A stretch of DNA of 23,128 nucleotides, taken from IMG/VR virus record IMGVR_UViG_3300036046_000035, positions 1-23,128 of that record. One strand, written 5' to 3'. Position numbers and translations under genes: made by a program. The notes beneath the pieces are model-generated. The model did no database searches. It saw nothing but the letters and a program-made list of their open reading frames with translations, and was not told the DNA's origin. Source of the DNA: a virus. Every line of letters begins with the position of its first letter. Positions within the stretch are counted from its first letter, which is position 1. Shown here piece by piece: positions 649-21,213 of the stretch.

Positions 649-855
649 ATGCCGCTTCCCACGACCCCCGGCTCCAGCCCTGAGCTCGCTGCTGCACTCG
701 ACAGGATGAAAGGACAACTCCTCATAGTCCTGGTCAACAGGCTGGGTGGCGAAATCAGCATACCTGTGTCTGAGATCGATGCCACTGGCGGCTGGATGCT
801 TGACCTTGAGGTTCAGGGCACAGACTTCAACTTCAAGACTTCGAGGAAACAATGA
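649..855 (+). CDS. hypothetical protein, 68 residues
   Basis: I do not recognise this protein. ATG at 649 follows the previous stop by one base, with GGAG at about 637-640 as ribosome binding site; an in-frame ATG at 604 would overlap the previous gene by 44 bases. A short hydrophobic strand (LLIVLVNRLGG) and a strand-rich C-terminus suggest a small beta or alpha/beta fold. Its stop overlaps the exonuclease start as ATGA (852-855), which suggests translational coupling to the replication cassette. Confidence 0.7.
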   Translation: MPLPTTPGSSPELAAALDRMKGQLLIVLVNRLGGEISIPVSEIDATGGWMLDLEVQGTDFNFKTSRKQ

Positions 856-1424
856 AGGCGCTGATCTTCGACACCGAGACCACCGGCCTCTTCAAGTTCT
901 TCCACAAGCACCATGTGCGCCCGGAGCAGATGAAGCCCTATCCGTGGATCATCGAGTACTTCGGCCACGTCGTGACCGATGACGGTGAGGTCAACTCTGA
1001 GGAGGACTTCCTGGTCCGCCCCGGCGCGCTGAACCTGATCGACGAGACAATTACGCGCATCACCGGACTCAAGCCGGAGGACGTGGCCGATCAGCCGATG
1101 TTCGAGGCCTACGCCGACCGTGTTCTGGCTCAGGTCGAGTCGGCTGAGGCGATCGTAGCCCACAACCTGAGCTACGACATGCGGATGCTTGAGGTCGACT
1201 TCAAGCGGGTTGGCAAGTGGGAGCAGATAAAGGAAGCTCTGGCCGGCAAGCGCCTGATCTGCACTGTCGAGCAGTCAGAGCACTACAAGGGCCACCGCCT
1301 CAATCTGTCTGCCCTGCACGAGCATCTGTTCGGCAAGACCTTCGAAGGCGCTCACCGGGCGCGGGCAGACGTGGGGGCGCTCACCGCTTGCTATCTCGAG
1401 ATGCGCCGCCGGAAGGACATCTGA
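852..1424 (+). CDS. DnaQ-like DEDDh 3'-5' exonuclease
   Basis: 190 residues. All three exonuclease motifs are visible: ExoI FDTETTGL with D7 and E9; ExoII in VAHNLSYDMRML with D109; ExoIIIepsilon in HRARADVGAL with H168 and D173. This is the complete DEDDh set of two-metal-ion exonucleases such as the DNA polymerase III epsilon subunit. It lies immediately upstream of a DnaE-type polymerase (3 intervening bases), so the likely role is proofreading for that polymerase, in trans. The length fits an epsilon catalytic core without the usual C-terminal alpha-binding tail; I see no clear clamp-binding motif. Its start overlaps the previous stop (ATGA). A general DNA or RNA exonuclease role is possible, but adjacency to dnaE makes proofreading the best reading. 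Confidence 0.92.
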   Translation: MKALIFDTETTGLFKFFHKHHVRPEQMKPYPWIIEYFGHVVTDDGEVNSEEDFLVRPGALNLIDETITRITGLKPEDVADQPMFEAYADRVLAQVESAEAIVAHNLSYDMRMLEVDFKRVGKWEQIKEALAGKRLICTVEQSEHYKGHRLNLSALHEHLFGKTFEGAHRARADVGALTACYLEMRRRKDI

Positions 1425-1427
1425 GCC

Positions 1428-4292
1428 GTGGACCTAGTAAAGCTCAAGACGGGCTACAGCTTCCGCAACACTGCCGGCGACCTCAAGGACGTCATGGGCA
1501 GGCTCAAGGAGATTGGGGCGATCTACGCCCCCATCACCGACCGGGCCTCGACCTTTGGTTTCTACCGCTGGACCAAGATGGCTGAGAAGGAAGGTCTCAA
1601 GCCGATCTACGGCGTCGAGCTGGCAGTCACCCGGTCCATCAACGAGAAGAAGCCCTCGGTGGACTATTGGACGTTCATCGCCACCGAAGAGGTCGGAGCA
1701 GTCAACCGGCTTGTGGAGTTGGCGACGACGCAGTTCCGCTACCAACCGCTCCTGACTCTGGAGCAGGCTCTGGCGGCGGATGGTGTCGTCAAGATCACTG
1801 GCTCCCGCCCGCCCATGGACCTGGAATGCGAGCCCACCCCCGGCGTCTACATCGGCTTGGGCCCCTCGTCCCCGGTGGCCATCGTCAGGCGTGCTCTGGA
1901 CCACGGCTGGCCGTTCCTGGCCTGCTTCGACAACCGCTACGTCCGGGAAGAGGACGAGTTCCTGTATGAGATGCTGACGGGCCGGGGTGCTGAAGTCCAG
2001 ACCTATGCCCAGCATATCTTGACCGAGGACGAGTGGCGCGCGTCCATCGCCCACCACAACCTGCCGGCCGATCAGGTGACGTTGGCGCTTGAGCGAGCAT
2101 CGCTTGAGGCAAGGGCCTGCTCCAGTGTGCGCCTGCCACGCGCAACCCTGCCCCATCCCGAGCGTCCGGACACGCTTGAGAACATGTGCCGAGCAGGCGC
2201 AAAACGGCTGGGTTGCGACCTTTCCGACCCGGTGTACGCCGCGCGGCTGGAGCGCGAGCTGACTCTGATAAAGCAGAAGGACTTCGAGGACTACTTCTAC
2301 ATCGTGGCCGACATCTGTCAGTGGGCACGCGCCCGCATGATCGTCGGACCGGCGCGCGGCTCGTCCTGCGGCTCCCTAGTCTGTTGGTTGCTGGGCATTA
2401 CGACGGTCGACCCGATACCATTCGGGCTGATCTTTGAACGGTTCATCGACATCAACCGCAACGACATGCCCGACATCGACATCGACTTCTCTGACCAACA
2501 ACGCTACATGGTGTTCGACTACGCCTATGAGAAGTACGGTCGGGACAAGGTCGCTCGCCTTGGGACAGTCGCCCTGTTCAAGCCCCGGTCGGCCCTGCAG
2601 GAAGTCGGCGCGGCCATGCAAATCCCCAAGTGGAAGTGCGACGCTGTGGCTGAGTCCCTGATCGAGCGTTCAGGCGGTGACTCTCGCGCCCTTCAGACCC
2701 TGGAGGACACCCTGCGGACCATGCCCGCCGGTCAGGAGCTGCTGCGTGAGTATCCGGACGCAGTCATCGCCGCCCGGTTCGAGGGCCACCCCCGCCACTA
2801 CTCCCAGCACGCGGCGGGCATCGTGCTGGCCGATCGGCCCATTACCGACTACGTGGCCGTGGACCATCGCACCGGCGCGACCATGTGCGACAAGAAGGAC
2901 GCTGAGGATGGCTACAACCTGCTCAAGGTGGACGCCCTAGGCCTGACCCAGCTGTCCGTCTTCGAGGACGCCCTGGAGCTTGCCGGCCTGCCGCGCGACC
3001 ACCTTGAGACCCTGCCACTGGACGATCAGGCAGCGTTCGAGGTGCTCAACCAAGCCCGGTGGTCCGGCATCTTCCAGTTCAACGGCCAAGCCCTGCAGTC
3101 CATCACCAAGCAGTTCAAAGTCACCAAGTTCGACGACATCGTTTCGGTCACCGCCCTCGGTCGCCCCGGCCCCCTGTCGTCTGGTGGCGCCCACGAGTGG
3201 ATCAAGCGCAAGAACGGCGCCAGTCCGATCGAATACCCCCATCCCATCTTCAAGCCCTTCCTGGAAGACACCCTCGGGATCGTCATCTATCAGGAGCAGG
3301 TCATGGAGATTGGCCGGCAGATCGGTGACCTCGACTGGGGCCAAGTCACCGCCCTGCGCAAGGCCATGTCCAAGTCACTGGGCAAGGAGTACTTCGATCA
3401 GTTCGGTGACCCCTGGAAGGCTGGTGCCATCGCCAAGGGCGTTGACCCGGCCAAGGCTGAGAAGGTCTGGGACGACCTCTGTGCCTACGGCGCTTGGTCC
3501 TTCAACAAGTCACACTCGGTTGCCTACGGTCTGATCAGCTACTGGTGCTGCTGGCTCAAGGCCCATCACCCGTTCGCCTTCGCCGCCGCCACCTTGTCTC
3601 ACGAGACGGACCCGATGCGCCAAATCCAGCTGCTGCGTGAGATGGTGGCGGAAGGCTTTGAGTACGTCCCGGTCGATGCTGAGTATTCTGGTGAGAAGTG
3701 GTCGATCGGCTTCCGTGATGGCAAGCAATACCTCGTCGGCCCCCTCAGCTCTGTCAAAGGCATCGGCCCCAAGATGGTCAAGACCATCATCGGAGCGCGG
3801 GCGCGCGGCGAGCCTATGCCGGACCGGGCCAAGAAGCTCCTGGCAAATCCCAAGACGGACATCGACAGCATCTGGCCGGTTCGTGATGCCTTCAAGCGCC
3901 ACATGCCCGACCCGTTGGAGCGGAACATCGTCACCCCGCCGACCCCGGTCATCAAGGCACAGATCAAGGCCCAGGACTACACCGTGGTGCTCTTCGTCAC
4001 CCCGTCCAAGATCAACCCGCGCGACGAGAACGAGGCGGTGATCGTGGCCCGGCGCGGCTATGAGATCAAAGACGGGCGCACCACTTCGCTCAACCTGCAG
4101 CTGACCGATGACACCGACACTATCTTCGGCAAGGTCAGCCGCTACGACTACGAGAAGTTCGGCCGTGAGATCGTTGACCGGGGTCGCCCCGGCAAGGCTC
4201 TCTACGCCATCAAGGGCCGCATCCGTGGAGGCAGCAGCTTCCGCATGGTCATGATTCAGTCAATCAAGTACATCGGGGACATCGACAAGTGA
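1428..4292 (+). CDS. dnaE: family C DNA polymerase (DNA polymerase III alpha subunit-like) with degenerate PHP domain
   Basis: 954 residues from a GTG start three bases after the exonuclease stop. In order: an N-terminal PHP-like region (about 1-230), the palm with GPARGSSCGSLVCWLLG and catalytic MPDIDIDF (D349, D351, D353), the fingers with SVFEDALEL, YQEQVMEIG and SFNKSHSVAYGLISYWCCW, a helix-hairpin-helix-like VKGIGPKMVKTII (about 776-788), and a C-terminal strand-rich region that could be OB-like. Bacterial DnaE is usually about 1100-1200 residues, so this is a compact version lacking much of the C-terminal tau-binding region. The PHP metal-binding histidines are absent: the first motif reads KLKTGYSF where active proteins have HxH, and TDR replaces TDH. 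Proofreading is therefore expected from the separate exonuclease. The polymerase probably replicates the phage genome with the primase-helicase that overlaps its stop (GTGA, 4289-4292). Confidence 0.95.
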   Translation: MDLVKLKTGYSFRNTAGDLKDVMGRLKEIGAIYAPITDRASTFGFYRWTKMAEKEGLKPIYGVELAVTRSINEKKPSVDYWTFIATEEVGAVNRLVELATTQFRYQPLLTLEQALAADGVVKITGSRPPMDLECEPTPGVYIGLGPSSPVAIVRRALDHGWPFLACFDNRYVREEDEFLYEMLTGRGAEVQTYAQHILTEDEWRASIAHHNLPADQVTLALERASLEARACSSVRLPRATLPHPERPDTLENMCRAGAKRLGCDLSDPVYAARLERELTLIKQKDFEDYFYIVADICQWARARMIVGPARGSSCGSLVCWLLGITTVDPIPFGLIFERFIDINRNDMPDIDIDFSDQQRYMVFDYAYEKYGRDKVARLGTVALFKPRSALQEVGAAMQIPKWKCDAVAESLIERSGGDSRALQTLEDTLRTMPAGQELLREYPDAVIAARFEGHPRHYSQHAAGIVLADRPITDYVAVDHRTGATMCDKKDAEDGYNLLKVDALGLTQLSVFEDALELAGLPRDHLETLPLDDQAAFEVLNQARWSGIFQFNGQALQSITKQFKVTKFDDIVSVTALGRPGPLSSGGAHEWIKRKNGASPIEYPHPIFKPFLEDTLGIVIYQEQVMEIGRQIGDLDWGQVTALRKAMSKSLGKEYFDQFGDPWKAGAIAKGVDPAKAEKVWDDLCAYGAWSFNKSHSVAYGLISYWCCWLKAHHPFAFAAATLSHETDPMRQIQLLREMVAEGFEYVPVDAEYSGEKWSIGFRDGKQYLVGPLSSVKGIGPKMVKTIIGARARGEPMPDRAKKLLANPKTDIDSIWPVRDAFKRHMPDPLERNIVTPPTPVIKAQIKAQDYTVVLFVTPSKINPRDENEAVIVARRGYEIKDGRTTSLNLQLTDDTDTIFGKVSRYDYEKFGREIVDRGRPGKALYAIKGRIRGGSSFRMVMIQSIKYIGDIDK

Positions 4293-6508
4293 AGATCAAG
4301 TCGCTTTCGGACATCAAGGCTATCCAGGCCTATCTTCAGCGCGTCGGGGCGGAGCCTCGCTCCCTGTCCGCTGCCGTGGTCAAGGAGCAGCACGGCAAGT
4401 ACTGGCAGGACGTCGCCACCATCAAGTTTACCAAGAAGGGCGAGGTCCACTGCAACGACCTTCAATATGCCCCGACGGAGCTTGAGGCGGCGTCCATCGC
4501 GGCTGAGTGTGCCAACGTCACATGGCCGCAGATGAAGCCCATCGAGCGGATCATCAACCCGCCGGCAATGATCAAGAATGCCAGCCGCAAGGACATCTTC
4601 GAGTTCCGGGACGAGCAGGGACAGATCATCTTCGTGCAGGTGCGCATCGAAGCTGATGGTGGCAAGAGCTATGTGCCGTGGACCTACTTCGACGACGACG
4701 AGTGGCGCTGCTGCGAGCCGGAAGGCCAGCTGCCGCTCTACGGCCTGGACCGCATCGGCGACAACACCACAGTGTTCATCCACGAGGGTGCCAAGGCCGC
4801 ACAGCGGGTGCAGTGGATGGTGGACGGCGAGACCCGCGAGGCAAAGGACGCTCTGAAGTCCCACCCTTGGGGCCAGCAGCTGACCGGCGCGGCCCACCTT
4901 GGCTGGGTCGGCGGGGCCTTGTCGCCCTACCGCACCGACTGGTCGGCGCTCCGCAAAGCGGGTGTCAAGCGGGCCTACATAATCGCCGACAATGACGAGC
5001 CGGGCCGGGCGGCTGTGCCGGCCATCGCCCATCATCTGCGCATGCCGACCTTCATGATCCAGTTCACCGACGAGTTCCCGGTGAGCTTCGATCTGGCCGA
5101 CCCGTTCCCGGACGAGATGTTCAAGGAGAACGACGCCACCAAGTTCTACACCGGCCCCGCCTTCCGGGAGTGCCTGCACCCGGCCACCTGGGCCACCGAC
5201 CAGATACCCAACCCGGAAGGCAAGGGTCGCCCCATCACCGTCCTGCGGGACTGCTTCAAGGGGCTCTGGGCCTACATCGAAGAGACCGACACCTTCGTGT
5301 GCACGGAGATGCCGGACATCATGAGGACCGAGCAAATCCTCAACAAGATGCTGGCCCCCTTCAGCCATGTGGCCGAGACCTCCCGCCTCATCCTCAAGGC
5401 CTATCAGGGCCGTTCGACGCGGGTGTGCTACCGGCCTGATCACGAGGGGCTGGTGGTGACCTTCCGAGGCTCGTCGGCCATCAACCTGCACATTCCGTGC
5501 CAGATTCCGTCCGTTGCCGGCGACATCAAGCCCTTCCTGGACTTCATGCGCTACCTCTTCGTCCATGAGTCTGAGATGCTGGAGGCCCTGCGTTGGGTCG
5601 CCACGCTTATCGCCCGGCCCGACCTACGCATGGGCTACGGCCTGCTGCTGATCTCCGAGGCTCAGGGGGTCGGCAAGACCACCCTCGGAAGCTCCATCCT
5701 CGCGCCGCTGGTGGGGGTTCAGAACGTCAGCTACCCGTCTGAGAACGACATCAACGCGGACTTCAACGGCTGGGTCGCCCACAAGCGTCTGGCCGTGGTC
5801 AACGAGATCTACTCTGGCAGCAGCTGGAAGGCCTACAACGCCCTCAAGTCGGTCATCACCGACACCGAGGTGACGGTCAACCAGAAGTACATGCGCCAGT
5901 ATGAGATCGAGAACTGGTGCCACGTCGTCGCCTGCTCCAACTCCATGCGGGCACTCAAGATGGAGAACGACGACCGTCGTTGGTTCTATCCGGAAGTCAC
6001 CGAGGTGCCGTGGCCCAAGGAGAAGTTCGTGGCCTTCCGCAAGTGGCTCAACGGCGGTGGCCTCTCCATCATCAAGGCTTGGGCAGAGGGCTTTGAGTCT
6101 GCCGGCGCTTCCTACGTCACCCCCTCGGAGCGCGCTCCCATGACGGAGCGCAAGCTGGAGATGATCGAAGGGAGCCGGTCGGAGTCACAGGCTGAAGCGG
6201 CTGCGATCGCCGACACCCTCAAGGAGCTCGACAAGCCAGCCGCTGTCCTGATCAAGGACGTGGTCGGTTGGTGCCGTGAGCACGTTCAGGGCCGGGTCTT
6301 CGACACCGACTACGAGCTGCGCCGGTCAATGACCGACGCCGGGGTGCACGCTTGGCAGAAGCGCATCAAGGTCGGCGGGCGTCTGCAATACGCCATCGTC
6401 AATCCGAAACTGCTTGACCTTCTGCAGCGTGCAGAGGCAGAAGAGCAGACCCGGCTGATCCGGGAGAACGTCGTTAAGGTTAGCGACATAATGCAACAGG
6501 AGATGTGA
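4289..6508 (+). CDS. primase-helicase: Toprim-like region plus superfamily 3 (DUF5906/D5-type) helicase
   Basis: 739 residues from GTG at 4289, overlapping the polymerase stop. A Toprim-like segment has the conserved glutamate in FIHEGAKAA (E166) and the DxD pair in IIADNDEPGRA (D234, D236), as in DnaG-type primases. The C-terminal half has Walker A in SEAQGVGKTTLG (K463), then FNGWVAHKRLAVVNEIYSG (Walker B-like region) and VVACSNSMRALKMENDDRR, typical of SF3/DUF5906 phage helicases with the sensor Asn and arginine region. The expected role is unwinding the fork and laying primers for the adjacent DnaE. I see no N-terminal zinc ribbon of the DnaG type; the first 100 residues are unrecognised. 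It forms one operon with the polymerase and exonuclease and is followed after one base by a small membrane protein gene. Confidence 0.9.
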   Translation: MKIKSLSDIKAIQAYLQRVGAEPRSLSAAVVKEQHGKYWQDVATIKFTKKGEVHCNDLQYAPTELEAASIAAECANVTWPQMKPIERIINPPAMIKNASRKDIFEFRDEQGQIIFVQVRIEADGGKSYVPWTYFDDDEWRCCEPEGQLPLYGLDRIGDNTTVFIHEGAKAAQRVQWMVDGETREAKDALKSHPWGQQLTGAAHLGWVGGALSPYRTDWSALRKAGVKRAYIIADNDEPGRAAVPAIAHHLRMPTFMIQFTDEFPVSFDLADPFPDEMFKENDATKFYTGPAFRECLHPATWATDQIPNPEGKGRPITVLRDCFKGLWAYIEETDTFVCTEMPDIMRTEQILNKMLAPFSHVAETSRLILKAYQGRSTRVCYRPDHEGLVVTFRGSSAINLHIPCQIPSVAGDIKPFLDFMRYLFVHESEMLEALRWVATLIARPDLRMGYGLLLISEAQGVGKTTLGSSILAPLVGVQNVSYPSENDINADFNGWVAHKRLAVVNEIYSGSSWKAYNALKSVITDTEVTVNQKYMRQYEIENWCHVVACSNSMRALKMENDDRRWFYPEVTEVPWPKEKFVAFRKWLNGGGLSIIKAWAEGFESAGASYVTPSERAPMTERKLEMIEGSRSESQAEAAAIADTLKELDKPAAVLIKDVVGWCREHVQGRVFDTDYELRRSMTDAGVHAWQKRIKVGGRLQYAIVNPKLLDLLQRAEAEEQTRLIRENVVKVSDIMQQEM

Positions 6509-8748: not shown

Positions 8749-8756
8749 AATGAGGC

Positions 8757-8771
8757 GGCGCGAGTTGCGCC
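8757..8771 (+). promoter_or_regulatory. 5' leader stem-loop, copy B
   Basis: GGCGC (8757-8761) pairs with GCGCC (8767-8771) around the five-base loop GAGTT. It begins 11 bases after the promoter block and is followed by AAACTGGAG, which carries the helicase ribosome binding site. The middle stem pair is C-G here and G-C in copy C, so pairing is kept while sequence changes. Confidence 0.6.
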
Positions 8772-8788
8772 CAAACTGGAGCGAACTG

Positions 8789-10294
8789 ATGACCTTCCAA
8801 GCCACCCCCCAGCAGCAGACCTTCCTGTCGGCCCTGACGGACACCGTCAGCCACCTCGCCCTCGTGGCCCGCGCCGGTTGCGGCAAGACCTCGACCATCC
8901 TGATGGGCGTCGACGCCATCATGGCCAAGTTCCCGCGCGCTGAGGTTCTGGTCTGTGCCTTCAACAAGTCGATTGCCGACGAGGTGGGTGGCAAGCTCAA
9001 GAAGGCCGGTCACGTCAACTGGAAGCAGGTCCAAGCGTCCACCCTCCACTCGCTGGGCTGGGGCCTCGTCCGCTTCGCCTACAAGCTGGACAACAACGCC
9101 ATCGACGACAAGAAGGTGCGCCGCATCATCGAGACTCAGAACGAGCCTGAGTTCGCCGAGTTCGGTGCTCAGGTCGAGGCCATGGTGCGCTACGGCAAGC
9201 AGGCCGGTGTCGGCTTCTTCCCGGACCTGCCGATTGAGTCGTTCGACGTGTGGGCCCATCTGGCCAACCACTACGACGTCAACGGCTTCGACGACACGTC
9301 GGTCCTGGACACGGTCATCCAGCTGACCCAGAAGGTCTACCGCATCTCGCTGGCCCAGACCGATGTGGTCGACTTCGACGACATGATCCTGTTCCCTCTG
9401 GTCAAGAACCTGCGCGTCAAGTTCGGCAAGGACTTCATCTTCCTGGACGAGGCCCAAGACCTGAGCCGCAGCCGGCAGGCGCTGGCCCGCAAGTTCCTCA
9501 AGTACGGCACCGGCCGGATGATCGTGGTCGGCGACGACCGGCAGGCCATCTACGGCTTCACCGGCGCGGACGCGGCGGCGCTGGACAATCTGGTCCGCTC
9601 CCTGCAGGCCAAGGTGCTTCCGCTGACGGTGACGTGGCGCTGCCCCAAGGCCGTGGTCGCTCTGGCCCAGACGATCGTTCCGGACATCATGGCCGCCCCT
9701 TCGGCCCCGGAAGGCGAGGTGCTGCGCCTGACTGAGATGCCCAAGTCGTTCGAGCCGACCGACGCCATCCTCTGCCGCAACACCGCCCCGCTGGTGCAGA
9801 CCGCCTACGCCCTGATCCGTCAGGGAACGGCCTGCAAGGTCGAGGGCCGGGCCATCGGCGACGGCCTCAAGCAGCTGGCCAAGCGTTGGAAGGTCAAGTC
9901 CATCGACGCCCTGCTGAACCGCATCGACGCGTATCAGGAGCGCGAGGTGCAGAAGGCCATGGCCAAGGACCAAGAGCAGAAGGCTGAGCAGGTCATCGAC
10001 AAGTGCGAGACCATCCGGGTCATCTGCCGGGCCTGCATCGGCAAGGGCCAGACGACCGTGGCCGACGTGGTCTCTTTCATCGACAGCCTGTTCGCCGACG
10101 ACGTGACCGGCGTGACGACCCTCGCCACCTATCACCGGTCCAAGGGCCGTGAGTGGCCGCGCGTCTTTCTGATCAACCACAATGAGCTCTGCCCGTCGCG
10201 CGCTGCCAAGCAGCAATGGCAGCTGGAGCAGGAAGCCAATCTGGCCTACGTGGCCTTCACTCGGGCCCAGCAGACGCTGGCCTTCATCAACTGA
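8789..10294 (+). CDS. UvrD/Rep-like superfamily 1 DNA helicase
   Basis: 501 residues from ATG 8789, supported by GGAG at 8778-8781; an ATG at 8750 lies within the leader hairpin region and is rejected. Helicase motifs in order: Q-motif-like ATPQQQTFL, motif I in ARAGCGKTSTI (K33), motif II in FIFLDEAQD (D220, E221), motif III in VVGDDRQAIYGFTGAD, motif IV region TWRCPKAVVALA, motif V TYHRSKGREWPRVF and motif VI ANLAYVAFTRAQQTL. These define an SF1A 3'-5' helicase of the UvrD/PcrA/Rep group, though shorter than the usual 650-720 residues, with reduced accessory subdomains. It probably assists phage replication restart, recombination or repair. It is the first gene after promoter copy B. Confidence 0.93.
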   Translation: MTFQATPQQQTFLSALTDTVSHLALVARAGCGKTSTILMGVDAIMAKFPRAEVLVCAFNKSIADEVGGKLKKAGHVNWKQVQASTLHSLGWGLVRFAYKLDNNAIDDKKVRRIIETQNEPEFAEFGAQVEAMVRYGKQAGVGFFPDLPIESFDVWAHLANHYDVNGFDDTSVLDTVIQLTQKVYRISLAQTDVVDFDDMILFPLVKNLRVKFGKDFIFLDEAQDLSRSRQALARKFLKYGTGRMIVVGDDRQAIYGFTGADAAALDNLVRSLQAKVLPLTVTWRCPKAVVALAQTIVPDIMAAPSAPEGEVLRLTEMPKSFEPTDAILCRNTAPLVQTAYALIRQGTACKVEGRAIGDGLKQLAKRWKVKSIDALLNRIDAYQEREVQKAMAKDQEQKAEQVIDKCETIRVICRACIGKGQTTVADVVSFIDSLFADDVTGVTTLATYHRSKGREWPRVFLINHNELCPSRAAKQQWQLEQEANLAYVAFTRAQQTLAFIN

Positions 10295-13084: not shown

Positions 13085-13271
13085 TTCACCCTTTCTACCG
13101 CGCCAAGGTCGAACCCGCGCCATAGACCTGATAGGCAAGAAGGTCGAGGGCTTCCGTTGGCATCAGGGAGACATCATCATGGACCTTGAGGGTGGAAAGT
13201 CCCTGATCCTGGACACCAACATGACATTCGATGAGGACGGAAACCGCCTCGATTATGAAGGAACAGCTTGA
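13077..13271 (+). CDS. hypothetical protein, 64 residues
   Basis: I do not recognise it. GTG 13077 lies 8 bases inside the end of the previous gene. The protein has a repeated strand-turn look (KKVEGFRWHQGDIIMDLEGG, then SLILDTNMTFDEDG), resembling small beta-barrel or SH3-like proteins. Its stop overlaps the next start by one base (TGATG). Confidence 0.6.
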   Translation: MADSPFLPRQGRTRAIDLIGKKVEGFRWHQGDIIMDLEGGKSLILDTNMTFDEDGNRLDYEGTA

Positions 13272-14503
13272 TGACCGTCGTCCACCGCACCTACACCGAG
13301 TTCGATATTCGAGCCATCACGATCACCGGCCTCAGCGCCAAGCCGGAGAATGACAAGCGCCCGGCCATCGGAAAGTTCGGCACCGGCCTCAAGTACGCCA
13401 TCGCCGTGCTGCTACGCAACGGCTGCTCGGTCACCATCATCACCCCCGGCCAGCGGCACAAGCTGGTGGCTCAGGTCGGCGAGTTCCGGGGCCAGCCCTT
13501 TGAGGCCGTGGCCATGCGGTCGATCGCCAACCCGCCGACCAAGAACTCGCGCTACAAGCGCATGGTCCTGCCGTTCACGACCCACTACGGCATCAACTGG
13601 GAAATGTGGATGGCGTTCCGTGAGCTTCACTCCAACACGCTGGACGAGGGCGGCTGGACCAAGCTGTTCAGCAGGGAGCTGCCGGACGAGCACAAGTACG
13701 TCAGCGAGGGCTGCGCCATCCTGGTCGAGGGCGAGGCCTATGAGGCCGAATACTACAACATGCACCGCACGTTCTTGGACGCTGGACCGAGCGTGCGCTA
13801 CGAAGGTGGCGGGGTCCGCATCTACGACCTGCCGCACGAGGACTACGTCAATGAGTTCAAGTACTATCGCGGCCTGCGTGCCGGCGATGTGCAGGACAAC
13901 AAGATGACCCTGTTCATCTACGACGCGGTCGGAGAGGTCTACCTGACCGAGGAGCGACGGGTGCAGGACTATTTCTGGGACTGGCGGGTCGCCAACGCCA
14001 TCGCTGAGAGCGACGACGAGGAGCTGATCCGTGCCGTGCTGAAGGCCGACGACGACTACTGGGAGTCCACCCTCAACTTCCACCCGTCCATGCAACCCAG
14101 CGAGACCTTCCTGCGGGTGGCGGCCACGGCCAAGGTGCGCCAGCGCCACTACGAGTACATCAAGGCCCACAAGCCGGTCTCCATCAAGGAGCTCGACCTG
14201 GACCTGTACCCCACGCCGTGGAAGCTGGAGGGCTACGCCATCCTCGCCGGCAACGACAACCCGGTCGCCACCCGTCCAAACGGCATGACGGAAGAGGTCT
14301 GGAAGTCGATCTGGCTTGGACGGGTGGCGACCATCAACGCCCACGCCCCGTCGATCTTCAAGCCCGAGACAGACGAAGCCGCGCCCGGCCCGGTCGAGGC
14401 GGCTGAGGACGATGCAGAACGTGTGTTTCTGACCGAGGAAGCGCCGATCGTCGAAGAAGACTGCCGAGAGTGTGCTGGCTGCGCCAAGTGCATGCCCTTC
14501 TGA
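13271..14503 (+). CDS. GHKL-ATPase-like phage protein with motifs in permuted order and a C-terminal four-cysteine tail
   Basis: 410 residues from ATG 13271, which has AAGG 10 bases upstream; a TTG one codon earlier is not needed. Near the N-terminus is GLSAKPENDKRPAIGKFGTG followed by LKYAIAVLLRNG (G34-K35-F36-G37-T38-G39-L40-K41), very like the G2/ATP-lid end of GHKL (gyrase B, Hsp90, MutL) ATPases. About 80 residues later comes MAFRELHSNTLDEGG (E118, N122, D125, E126, G127), very like the N-box helix E-x3-N-x2-D-x-G that in ordinary GHKL proteins precedes G2. A strand GCAILVEGEAYEAEY then follows. No DxGxG G1 motif is visible. The C-terminus is acidic and ends with C398-x2-C401-x2-C404-x2-C407-MPF, a possible metal site. 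I infer a circularly permuted or convergent GHKL-like domain; the function is unknown. The gene lies in the small-gene operon behind promoter C. Confidence 0.7.
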   Translation: MTVVHRTYTEFDIRAITITGLSAKPENDKRPAIGKFGTGLKYAIAVLLRNGCSVTIITPGQRHKLVAQVGEFRGQPFEAVAMRSIANPPTKNSRYKRMVLPFTTHYGINWEMWMAFRELHSNTLDEGGWTKLFSRELPDEHKYVSEGCAILVEGEAYEAEYYNMHRTFLDAGPSVRYEGGGVRIYDLPHEDYVNEFKYYRGLRAGDVQDNKMTLFIYDAVGEVYLTEERRVQDYFWDWRVANAIAESDDEELIRAVLKADDDYWESTLNFHPSMQPSETFLRVAATAKVRQRHYEYIKAHKPVSIKELDLDLYPTPWKLEGYAILAGNDNPVATRPNGMTEEVWKSIWLGRVATINAHAPSIFKPETDEAAPGPVEAAEDDAERVFLTEEAPIVEEDCRECAGCAKCMPF

Positions 14504-17966: not shown

Positions 17967-19321
17967 ACCTAGCCGAGCTGGTCGATCTGCCAGACGATAT
18001 CCGGGAGCAGGTCATTGCCGATCTGCCTGAAGAGGATATTGAGGCCCTCCTGCACGACTGGCGCTTTCTCGCGCGCCCTGAGCAGCTGGCCCCGGAAGGA
18101 AGCTGGCAGACTTGGATCTACATGGCTGGCCGTGGGGCCGGCAAGACCCGTTCTGGAGCTGAGTGGGTCAGGGAGAAGGCCAAGCTGGGCTATGGTCGGG
18201 GTGCGCTGATTGCCCCGACCGCTGCGGACGCCCGAGACGTCATGATCGAGGGTGAGTCCGGTCTGCTGTCCGTAGGCTGGGAGCACGACGTTGATCACCG
18301 GGGGCAGCTGATGGGTCGTCCCATCTACGAGCCTTCCAAGCGCCGGGTCAAGTGGGCCAACGGTGCACAGGTTACGGCATACTCGGCAGACGAGCCTGAG
18401 CGCCTGCGCGGACCGCAGCACGACTTCGGTTGGTGTGACGAGATGGGGGCCTGGAAGTACGCCAAGGACGCATGGGACATGTTCCTCATGGGCCTGCGCC
18501 TCGGTGACAATCCACAGGCAATGATCACCACGACGCCCCGGCCCCTGCCCATCATCCGGGAGATCCTCAAGGCTCCCGGCACAGTCAAGACCCACGGCGG
18601 CACGTTCTCCAACCGGGCCAACCTTGCCGATCAGTTCGTAAACAAGATCATCACCAAGTTCGCAGGCACCCGTCTGGGCCAGCAGGAGATCGAGGGCATC
18701 CTGCTCGACGACATTGCCGGCGCTCTATGGACCGCTGAGATGGTCGACGAGGCCTCGCGCTACTTCCGGGAAGGGGGTGGCCTGCCCGACCTACGGAGGA
18801 TCGTCATTTCGGTTGACCCGTCCGGCACCGCTGGGGACGAGGACGAGGGTGACGCCATCGGCCTGATCGCCGCCGGTGTGGCCGAGATCAACGGCATGGA
18901 CCACGGATTCGTTCTCCAGGACGGCACCATCAAGGCCAGCCCTGACCAGTGGGCCCGGCGCGTCAAGCAGATGGCCGACCGCTGGGGAGCCGACTGCGTC
19001 GTCGCAGAGCGCAACTACGGTGGCGCCATGGTCGAGGCCGTGATCAAGGCCGCAGGAATCAAGTGCCGCTATAAGGAAGTCGTGGCCAGCCGGGGCAAGG
19101 TCGTTCGGGCTGAGCCAGTGGCCGCTCTGTACGAGCAGAAGCGCATCCACCATATGGCCATGATGGGCGAGCTTGAGAAGCAGCTCATGGCCTTCACCAA
19201 CATGGGCTACTTGGGTGACGGCTCGCCGGACCGGGGCGATGCTCTGGTGTGGGCGATCACTGACCTTATGATCACCGACAACGAATACAACTTCAACACC
19301 ATGGAGAAGGCTTGGTCATGA
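17963..19321 (+). CDS. terL: terminase large subunit (packaging ATPase-nuclease)
   Basis: 452 residues from GTG 17963, overlapping terS by 4 bases. The ATPase has Walker A in MAGRGAGKTRSGAEW (K61), LIAPTAADARDVM, and Walker B FGWCDEMGAW (D159, E160), then MITTTPRP as the coupling motif region. The nuclease has VISVDPSGTAGDEDE (D285), VVAERNYGG and a final acidic residue in PDRGDALVWAITDLM. This is the Terminase_6 type domain order. It should translocate phage DNA into proheads through the portal encoded next. The length is typical. Confidence 0.95.
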   Translation: MNLAELVDLPDDIREQVIADLPEEDIEALLHDWRFLARPEQLAPEGSWQTWIYMAGRGAGKTRSGAEWVREKAKLGYGRGALIAPTAADARDVMIEGESGLLSVGWEHDVDHRGQLMGRPIYEPSKRRVKWANGAQVTAYSADEPERLRGPQHDFGWCDEMGAWKYAKDAWDMFLMGLRLGDNPQAMITTTPRPLPIIREILKAPGTVKTHGGTFSNRANLADQFVNKIITKFAGTRLGQQEIEGILLDDIAGALWTAEMVDEASRYFREGGGLPDLRRIVISVDPSGTAGDEDEGDAIGLIAAGVAEINGMDHGFVLQDGTIKASPDQWARRVKQMADRWGADCVVAERNYGGAMVEAVIKAAGIKCRYKEVVASRGKVVRAEPVAALYEQKRIHHMAMMGELEKQLMAFTNMGYLGDGSPDRGDALVWAITDLMITDNEYNFNTMEKAWS

Positions 19322-21213
19322 CCCAGTCGATCAAGGGCACAGTCACCGCCGCCGACGGCATGGCCAACGTGGTCGCAGGTCTGGGGGCGGCCAATGCCAA
19401 GACCCAGATTCAGTACATCGCGCAGGTCGACCCTCTCTACCTCGAGACGAGCTACCGCAGCTCGACGTGGTTCGGCAAGATCGTGGACATTCCGGCCAAC
19501 GACGCTGTGCGGGAGTGGCGCCAATGGCAGGCCAAGGCTGAGGAGATCACCCTCCTGGAGGCCACCGAGAAGCGCCTGCAGGTCAAGCAGAAGGTGCGGG
19601 ACGCCCTGATCCTCCAGCGCCTGCTGGGCGGCGCGGTGCTCATCCCCACCGGCCTCCCCGGCGACCCTGAGAAGGAGCTGGACTTCAAGCGCATCACCAA
19701 GGACAGCATCAAGTCGCTGACCCTGCTGAATCGCTATCAGATTCAGGTCGAGGGACGGATCAACGACATCAACTCCAAGTGGTTCGGCCATCCGGAGTGG
19801 TACGTCTTCCAGGGCGAGCAGGGCCAGCCCCTGAAGCTCCACCCCTCCCGCGTGGTCCGCTTCTCAGCACGCCGGTTCACGCACCAGAACACCGGGGACG
19901 ACGGCTGGGGCGACAGCATCTGGCTGCGGATGGCCGACGCCATCCAGAACAGCGAGACCGCGACCGCCGCCCTCACGGCCCTGCTGGTCGAGGCCAAGAT
20001 CGACATTATCTCGATGCCGGACCTGACCAACAACATGGCGACCGAGAAGGCCGAGGCTGCGCTGATGCGTCGTATGACCATCGCTACTCAGCTGAAGTCC
20101 GTGGCCAATACCCTGCTGCTGGACAAGGACGACGAGTTCAACCAGAAGTCCTTCAACTTCGGCTCCATACCGCAGGCCGTGGAGCTCCTGCTGCAGGCCA
20201 TGTGCGGCGCGGCGGACATCCCCATGGAGCGGCTCCTCAACGCCCAGTCCAAGGGCCTTGGCAATGGGGCCGAGGGCGCGCTGAAGAACTACTACGACAT
20301 GGTCTCCAGCGGTCAAGAGCTGGACATCGACCCGGCCATCATGGACTTCAACGTCATGCTGGTCGCCTGCGCCTTGGGCAAGGTCGACGACAGCATCTGG
20401 TACGAGTGGCGCCCCCTCTACCAGATGTCCGAGAAGGAGGAGGCCGAGGTCGAGAGCACATATGCCACTGCCGCTGAGAAGCTGGTCAACACCGGCCTCA
20501 TCCCGCCGGACGTTCTGTCTGCTGCCGTGGTCGACCGCATGGTCAACTCCGGCAGCTGGCCTGCCCTGGAGGCCGCCATGGCCGCATCCAACCAGAAGGC
20601 TGAGGAGGTGCTGCGTGGCGAGCGTGAGTTCGAGCCGACCGAGGCTGAGCAGCAGGCGGCGGAGCGCCTTGCCGGCGGCACACCGGCCAACGAGGACGAC
20701 CCTGAGCCGGAGCAACGTCGCCGGGCGGCCAACGACGCGGCCCCTCGGACGCTGTACGCCTCCAGACGCCTCCTGAATGCGGATGATCTGCTGGCTTGGG
20801 CACAGGCACAGGGCTTCACCGGCCTCCTGAGCGCCGACAAGCTGCACGTCACCATCGCCTACAGCCACCAGCAGCTCGACTGGATGAAGGTTGGCGACGA
20901 CTGGAACAGCAGGGAGGACGGCACACTGCGCGTCGCCCCCGGCGGGGTGCGTCTGGTCGAAGCTCTGGGGGACGATGGGCAGGCCATCGTGCTTATGTTT
21001 ACCTCTTCGGCCCTCTCCTGGCGCCACGAGCAGATCAAGGCGGCGGGTGCCAGCTGGGACTGGGAGGACTACCAGCCCCACGTCACCTTCTCCTGGAAGG
21101 GTGCCGGCGACATGGACCTGCGCGCCGTCCAGCCCTACACCGGGGAGCTGCTGTTCGGTCCGGAGGTGTTCGCCGAGATCGACCCTGAGTGGCAGAAGAA
21201 GGTCAAGGGATGA
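19318..21213 (+). CDS. portal protein (DUF1073 type) with C-terminal 2H-phosphoesterase, Acb1-like domain
   Basis: 631 residues from ATG 19318, overlapping the terL stop; GGAG/AAGG just upstream favours it over TTG 19312. The N-terminal two thirds carries YRSSTWFGKIVDIPANDAVR, ALILQRLLGGAVLIP and SARRFTHQ, then SKGLGNGAEGALKNYYDMV, as in DUF1073 portal proteins. Residues from about 480 hold two HxT motifs, LHVTIAYS (H510-V-T512) and PHVTFSW (H588-V-T590), 78 residues apart, the hallmark of 2H phosphoesterases. The same domain occurs alone as the anti-CBASS enzyme Acb1, which hydrolyses cyclic oligonucleotide alarmones, and is known fused to DUF1073 proteins. An Ala/Glu-rich linker (about 435-480) separates the parts. 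The protein should form the portal ring; whether the C-terminal domain is active in defence is inference. Confidence 0.88.
   Translation: MTQSIKGTVTAADGMANVVAGLGAANAKTQIQYIAQVDPLYLETSYRSSTWFGKIVDIPANDAVREWRQWQAKAEEITLLEATEKRLQVKQKVRDALILQRLLGGAVLIPTGLPGDPEKELDFKRITKDSIKSLTLLNRYQIQVEGRINDINSKWFGHPEWYVFQGEQGQPLKLHPSRVVRFSARRFTHQNTGDDGWGDSIWLRMADAIQNSETATAALTALLVEAKIDIISMPDLTNNMATEKAEAALMRRMTIATQLKSVANTLLLDKDDEFNQKSFNFGSIPQAVELLLQAMCGAADIPMERLLNAQSKGLGNGAEGALKNYYDMVSSGQELDIDPAIMDFNVMLVACALGKVDDSIWYEWRPLYQMSEKEEAEVESTYATAAEKLVNTGLIPPDVLSAAVVDRMVNSGSWPALEAAMAASNQKAEEVLRGEREFEPTEAEQQAAERLAGGTPANEDDPEPEQRRRAANDAAPRTLYASRRLLNADDLLAWAQAQGFTGLLSADKLHVTIAYSHQQLDWMKVGDDWNSREDGTLRVAPGGVRLVEALGDDGQAIVLMFTSSALSWRHEQIKAAGASWDWEDYQPHVTFSWKGAGDMDLRAVQPYTGELLFGPEVFAEIDPEWQKKVKG

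Follow-up and report, generated by a model that had tools for sequence, protein, structure and literature searches.

Gyrase, Hsp90, MutL, MORC, and histidine kinases are built on the GHKL fold, and in Hsp90 the middle domain supplies an arginine to the gamma-phosphate. The clamp cycle of GHKL proteins has been described (PMC12733681). In the ordinary order of the fold the N-box comes first, and phrog_6077, a family of Vequintavirinae phage proteins, follows it, reading N-box, G1-like strand, GxSxK, and G2. We provide evidence that a second phage family, phrog_8203, holds the same parts in a circularly permuted order; both families are annotated as of unknown function. Our subject is P0001, a protein of phrog_8203 encoded in the window, by which we mean the whole 23,128-nucleotide stretch of virus DNA that was analysed. 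We put at roughly 0.78 the probability that P0001 is a phage-encoded, circularly permuted GHKL relative that would act as a nucleotide-driven clamp or switch on a target near replication.

The P0001 gene lies on the plus strand at 13271-14503, and a renewed reading of this ORF and its translation returned the frame and the motif positions given in a preliminary description of the 23,128-base record, which is possibly a fragment. The gene sits between replication genes and head genes (Table 1). Its ATG overlaps the stop of a small putative ORF in the sequence TGATG, an arrangement in which translational coupling of the two is possible. An exonuclease subunit and a DNA polymerase, both encoded by the phage itself, are adjacent at 852-4292. 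The portal ORF (19312-21213) has a C-terminal stretch, residues 489-629, that matches phrog_755 'RNA ligase' (E 7.9e-19) and contains two HxT motifs, HVTIAY and HVTFSW, which we take to resemble those of 2H phosphoesterases. Around the loci of the family, where neighbouring ORFs were called mechanically and some wrongly, no neighbour family is widely common: the largest upstream set reaches 9 of 95 loci and the largest downstream set 7 of 89, and neither includes the locus of this record. The commonest neighbours are ligase-like and nuclease-like ORFs, together with large ORFs that correspond in size and place to the annotated primase.

Table 1. Coordinates in the window of the P0001 gene, its motifs and blocks, and the genes around it (aa, residues of P0001)
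Feature	Coordinates	Strand	Remarks
Exonuclease	852-1424		Replication side of the P0001 gene
DNA polymerase	1428-4292		954 aa; phrog_405, E 2.7e-215
Primase-like gene	4289-6508		Replication side of the P0001 gene
Helicase	8750-10294		Replication side of the P0001 gene
Small putative ORF 5' of the P0001 gene	13077..13271	+	64 codons counted from first GTG
P0001 gene	13271..14503	+	410 aa (coding to 14500); phrog_8203 family; circularly permuted GHKL-like
First strand, aa 2-7	13274..13291	+	Equivalent of G1 strand; T7 at adenine-binding Asp position of other GHKL proteins
Degenerate G1 position, aa 7-12 T-Y-T-E-F-D	13289..13306	+	Most relatives N/T-x-G-x-I-D
GxSxK lid motif, aa 20-24 GLSAK	13328..13342	+	G20, K24 invariant in 81 rows
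G2 motif IGKFGTGLKYA, aa 33-43	13367..13399	+	At N-terminal start of helix 38-49
Moved block X: strand 96-103, N-box helix 112-125, strand 129-133	13556..13669	+	N-terminal in phrog_6077 and ordinary GHKL proteins
N-box FRELHSNTLDEGG, aa 116-128	13616..13654	+	R117, E118, N122, D125, E126, G128 invariant, 81 rows
Block Z, aa 141-300	13691..14170	+	Position equal in both families; matched to region after Hsp90/MORC ATPase domain
LTEERR, aa 225-230	13943..13960	+	Family form LTEDRT; L225, E227, R229 invariant
CxxCxxCxxC tail, aa 398-410	14462..14500	+	C-terminal, predicted disordered, P0001 only
Head genes: terminase, portal, head protease	from 17388 onward

Profile comparison places P0001 in phrog_8203 (E 1.8e-36, residues 4-285 on profile positions 5-257 of 394), with a weaker match to phrog_6077 (E 3.4e-10) whose best stretch, residues 19-58, runs from GxSxK to G2. 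A tblastn search of phage records returned 72 records at E <= 0.01, all below 60% identity and including 53 from Pseudomonas phages and 8 from Bordetella phages; most are annotated as hypothetical and a few as 'HATPase', 'ATP-binding protein', or 'metallopeptidase'. At E <= 10 the total was 107, and the additions include Vequintavirinae proteins, one of them named 'histidine kinase-like ATPase'. Among viral contigs a single-sequence query found one relative and an alignment query was needed for the rest, yielding 222 confirmed relatives, of which 80 were retained; among genome contigs, 14 relatives were confirmed. In Pfam, P0001 has no match below 0.1, the 81 family members have none below 0.01, and P0001 does not reach the curated cut-off of HATPase_c or HATPase_c_3, by which Hsp90-family membership was judged. 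Searches of PDB sequences gave no usable match with P0001 and no match with profiles of the permuted and canonical-order alignments, and a PADLOC scan of P0001 gave no match. A model based on the ordinary order cannot cover the permuted family over its full length, and a widespread family (222 relatives in one scan) is therefore without a Pfam match. The sacsin ATP-binding model NF047352 matches P0001 in its second half only (profile 37-68 of 80 on residues 8-41, E 0.0028, below the cut-off) but the phiTE protein over profile positions 5-68, which accords with the permuted order.

P0001 carries AIGKFGTGLKYA at residues 32-43 and FRELHSNTLDEGG at residues 116-128, so that a G2-like motif does precede an N-box-like motif, as had been noticed at the outset. 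Conservation was assessed in two alignments. The smaller was assembled ahead of any motif pattern from P0001, eight proteins found by tblastn of phage records, and L001, found by a scan with P0001 peptides; its nine relatives are 26-34% identical to P0001. For the larger, six loci lacking the G2 regex were removed before counting (L042, L067, L082, L088, L091, and L123, of which five read GTGF and one has a cut ORF); the remaining 98 rows were reduced to 88 by leaving out L002 (the window's copy), L003-L010 (annotated phage records), and L017 (a duplicate), and then to 80 by a k-mer similarity cut, ahead of the 81-row alignment. A third set, of 101 proteins, restores five of the six removed loci and leaves out L017 and the truncated L032.

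Residues G20, K24, G34, F36, G37, G39, K41, R117, E118, N122, D125, E126, G128, L225, E227, and R229 are invariant in both the 10-protein and the 81-row alignments. The GHKL N-box pattern ExxxNxxD, formed by E118, N122, and D125, is thus present in 81 of 81 rows, as is R229; an N-box regex matches 99 of the 101 family proteins, missing L078 and L085; and the G2 pattern GxxGxG reads GKFGTG and is joined to a helix at 38-49. The residues that the preliminary description singled out as those homologues ought to keep (E118, N122, D125, and GxFGxGLK) are kept in both alignments. The scan of viral contigs was seeded with '[AP]IG[FKM]FGTG' and 'LTEDRT..', which partly builds G2 and LTEDR conservation into those rows, and the 11 genome-contig rows come from a scan seeded on G2 or N-box patterns; in the larger set, only the N-box of the 69 viral-contig rows therefore counts as unbiased evidence. 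Judged on sequence, the motif pattern of P0001 goes beyond chance.

In its G1 motif P0001 departs from ordinary GHKL proteins. It had been reported that no G1 motif is seen, and DxGxG is indeed absent from the P0001 sequence, but residues 7-11, whose counterparts in most relatives read N-x-G-x-I, mark a degenerate G1 position. The Asp position holds N in 58 and T in 22 of the 80 rows with a letter there, the first Gly is present in 72 of 81 rows, and the position of the second Gly is without Gly; P0001 itself has T7, Y8, and T9. Five residues past the Asp position, D12 is found in 77 of 81 rows. With the G1 Asp lost from the permuted family, adenine specificity is not assured, and the capacity to bind nucleotide may have changed or disappeared. 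Proteins of phrog_6077 (among them L012-L014, Vequintavirinae) make up a further phage GHKL family, likewise uncharacterised, that keeps the ordinary order and mostly lacks the G1 Asp, the position being S or N in 21 of 23 and D in 2 of 23. Two canonical-order members have a true DxGxG (DDGPGM and DFGTGL), and Pfam links the canonical-order family to GHKL through matches to HATPase_c_3 in 6 of 23 proteins (best 1.3e-5), HATPase_c in 3 of 23, and Sacsin in 1 of 23.

The preliminary description had proposed that the motifs stand in circularly permuted order, a proposal that the ordinary-order sister family phrog_6077 and the ranges of the structural matches now bear out. We divide the proteins into block X (strand, N-box helix, strand), block Y (G1 strand, lid, G2 helix, strands), and block Z (a middle-domain-like part). 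Sequence and prediction alike show that the canonical order is X-Y-Z and that of phrog_8203 and P0001 is Y-X-Z, the sequence N-box, G1, G2 being replaced in P0001 by G1 position, G2, N-box. An HMM built from the ten permuted proteins matches 29 canonical-order loci, and in 23 of them the N-box stretch (profile ~75-125) lies upstream of G1/G2 (~4-68); in the other six (L011, L013, L106, L114, L115, and L119) this HMM did not find the N-box stretch. Among the matches listed, the reciprocal search showed an out-of-order N-box in 5 of 31 permuted rows, and the E-values of both searches relate to a small ORF set. By hhalign, the permuted and canonical profiles align at 98.7% over their collinear part (query 18-239 on 61-242) and at 93.4% over the out-of-order N-box block (E 2.5e-7, query 87-121 on 4-39). 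Taken by itself, the N-box block scores 56.4 (96.3%), while 100 column shuffles gave at most 19.1 (at most 3.9%). What has moved is the first block only, about 40 residues, the remaining order being unchanged. A tree of the shared blocks splits the 81 permuted from the 23 canonical proteins by one bipartition, supported at 1.0 on the canonical side and at 0.10 across the midpoint root, and one rearrangement therefore suffices.

Predicted structures agree with this ordination. AlphaFold2, run on the 81-row alignment, gave a P0001 model with a mean pLDDT of 80.4 and 261 residues at or above 90; pLDDT exceeds 90 over most of residues 1-300 and is 70-75 at residues 21-40, the expected lid region, and confidence is low at 301-410. 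The model of a canonical relative, L118, has a mean pLDDT of 68.1, lower in its second half. The predicted secondary structures of the two match block for block: P0001 has strand 2-7, helix 38-49, strands 53-58, 61-72, and 75-86, strand 96-103, helix 112-125, strand 129-133, and the rest, and L118 has strand 2-9, helix 18-30, strand 36-40, strand 44-49, helix 76-87, strands 91-96, 99-108, and 111-119, and the rest, so that the first block of L118 is the counterpart of the 96-133 block of P0001.

Searched by VIA, the P0001 model has GHKL proteins as 48 of the 50 matches listed (Hsp90, TRAP1, MORC2/3/4, GyrB, ParE, TopoVI, MutL, and topoisomerase II); the other two are coronavirus spike and calpain. 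In the best match, residues 1-302 fall on Hsp90 82-456 (Z 7.3, 198 residues, rmsd 5.2), and Z stays below 8 throughout, a low score being expected of a permuted fold under a sequential aligner. The matched ranges begin past the N-box, at the G1 strand (residue 82 of 8h77, 73 of 2cg9, 67 of 4prv, 62 of MORC2, and 152 of 4z1i), and a gapless alignment of the first seven residues would place residue 7 on the adenine-binding Asp in each match, which we take to be D88 in Hsp90-beta, D79 in yeast Hsp90, D73 in GyrB, D68 in MORC2, and D158 in TRAP1. The L118 model matches Hsp90 both by Foldseek (E 1.2e-6) and by VIA (Z 10.7); the latter match begins at Hsp90 residue 17 and hence includes the N-box in order. 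Foldseek with the P0001 model found nothing in the PDB at E <= 0.001, only unrelated rows with none below E 0.06 and no GHKL protein among the best 50, and five viral models at E <= 0.001, all uncharacterised or unnamed. Structure prediction, as proposed at the outset, and a sequential structural search by VIA thus return a predicted fold of the Bergerat alpha/beta, GHKL type for P0001, not an unrelated one.

Four regularly spaced cysteines had been remarked upon in the last 13 residues of P0001; they are real (Cys 398, 401, 404, and 407) but occur in 1 of 98 family rows, the window's own copy, and are unfit for interpreting the protein. This count, with the low model confidence, led us to reject a family metal site, and the tail is an add-on of P0001 alone. 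The regex [EHQ]ExxH is matched in the C-terminal part of 69 of the 101 family proteins, 37 of which end EPL; 13 of the 32 without it end PF. P0001 has no [HE]ExxH in its C-terminal part. Three canonical-order proteins (L112, L117, and L118) have a C-terminal HExxH, and EExxH stands at a similar place in most permuted relatives (the YuA gp29 type), which look as though the first His of a metallopeptidase-like domain had disappeared.

Many relatives (L026, L033, L057, L075, L077, and others) have ends resembling the SSB tip, such as DDDIPF, DDEIPF, and GDEIPF, and large primase-sized ORFs with such ends occur in some of the same loci. A PF end with at least two acidic residues in the six before it is found in 15 of the 101 family proteins, 12 of them among the 32 without ExxH, and in 21 of 1592 mechanically called neighbour ORFs; as related sequences are not independent, we attach no weight to p-values for this comparison. 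Several of these 21 are about 800 residues long and correspond in size and place to the annotated primase. The sequence DDDIPF is that of the SSB tip, through which SSB binds its partners (PMC5872125). The acidic tails of the relatives and of the primase-sized ORFs suggest a common tail for docking on replication partners. For P0001 itself we rejected an SSB-tip reading, as its end, KCMPF, falls short of that acidic count.

By analogy with other GHKL proteins, P0001 is most likely an ATP-gated dimeric clamp near phage replication. Sequence and prediction show that its chain opens with the G1 strand and that the N-box helix comes in later from within the chain and restores the same pocket. This pocket would bind nucleotide and Mg: E118 would be the catalytic base, N122 would bind Mg, and the GxFGTG loop would bind the phosphates. 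The LTEERR (LTEDR) element is a candidate for the role that the catalytic-Arg element of the middle domain plays in Hsp90; from it, R229 in the Z domain would contact the gamma-phosphate. Nucleotide binding would then shut a dimeric clamp or switch in the manner of Hsp90, MORC, and MutL. The target of the clamp might be DNA or a protein of replication or recombination, as hinted by the gene adjoining replication genes and by the tails of its relatives.

Several other explanations deserve consideration. That P0001 has an unrelated, unpermuted fold in which a glycine-rich loop and an N-box-like helix coincide by accident is disfavoured and, in our judgment, very improbable: the sequential Foldseek search without a significant PDB match and the want of a Pfam family at cut-off speak for it, but three blocks match the canonical family by profile with the N-box block far above its shuffled controls, the secondary structures of both models agree per block, and the VIA matches listed are nearly all GHKL. 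Granting a permuted GHKL-type fold, its origin might lie in an insertion, a duplicate of the N-box block, or a copy taken from another GHKL protein, having entered the middle of the chain before the N-terminal copy was lost. Duplication and loss would also leave only the first block of ~40 residues moved and the others in order; the outcome, Y-X-Z, is however identical, the routes are not separable by sequence alone, and no intermediate with two N-boxes was seen, albeit without a systematic search. We hold this route to be possible, with the odds somewhat against it.

Function raises two further alternatives to an ATP-gated clamp. The permuted fold may no longer be an ATPase, serving as a pseudo-enzyme or as a sensor of another nucleotide, an NAD-like compound, or nucleic acid; the family-wide change of the G1 Asp to N or T, the missing second G1 Gly, and the mostly Asp-less phrog_6077 point in that direction. 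We consider this unlikely, however, given that all 81 of 81 rows keep the N-box Glu/Asn/Asp, the G2 loop, and the LTEDR Arg unchanged, which is unexpected in a dead site, and that base recognition might have passed to D12. A role in counter-defence instead of replication, like that of the T4 GHKL protein rIIA, strikes us as rather improbable. GHKL proteins like rIIA have been discussed as counter-defence factors (PMC7824862), and the family is surrounded in phages by many small uncharacterised genes; on the other side stand, as circumstantial points, the lack of a PADLOC match for P0001 and the primase-sized, ligase-like, and nuclease-like ORFs that are the commonest neighbours of the family.

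A permuted GHKL clamp thus remains our preferred reading, and a fuller version of it can be offered tentatively, at a shade under even odds: the family would represent the first described natural permutation of the GHKL/Bergerat fold, in which the N-box beta-alpha-beta unit moved inward once in a large phage family, the Asp that binds adenine disappeared, D12 may have taken on base recognition, and the SSB-tip-like tails of some members would tether the clamp to the replication machinery. Within the open-licence PMC literature we found no description of a permuted GHKL or Bergerat protein; among the papers found there, permutation concerned methylases (PMC7824862) and HEPN domains (PMC3710099), and one used a permuted GFP (PMC6372613).

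Comparison with known systems sets this rearrangement, common to a large family of uncharacterised phage proteins, in context. In P0001's own family, phrog_8203 (YuA gp29, M6 ORF071, and the Ssp-JY42 'HATPase'), the permuted order is common to the ten aligned proteins; most members have a C-terminal EExxH stretch, often ending GEPL, whereas P0001 lacks it and has its own Cys tail. T4 rIIA, likened by description, is a phage GHKL-domain protein of poorly understood role whose GHKL domain is N-terminal (PMC7824862). The second half of the sacsin N-terminal ATP-binding domain (NF047352) resembles residues 8-41 of P0001, but its first half, the N-box, is absent there in P0001. Hsp90/TRAP1 and the MORC ATPases, the best structural matches of the P0001 model, share the N-box, lid, and G2 followed by a middle domain; they differ in their ordinary order, retained G1 Asp, and far larger size, and their PDB sequences gave no profile match. 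Outside the family, phrog_6077 (phiTE_019 and the ABPH49 'histidine kinase-like ATPase') by profile has all three blocks, including GxSxK, G2, the N-box, and an LDRDR element, but keeps the ordinary N-box, G1, G2 order and, in some members, DxGxG and a C-terminal HExxH. The permuted family and this ordinary-order sister together constitute a natural experiment on which connections of the ATPase couple nucleotide to clamp closure.
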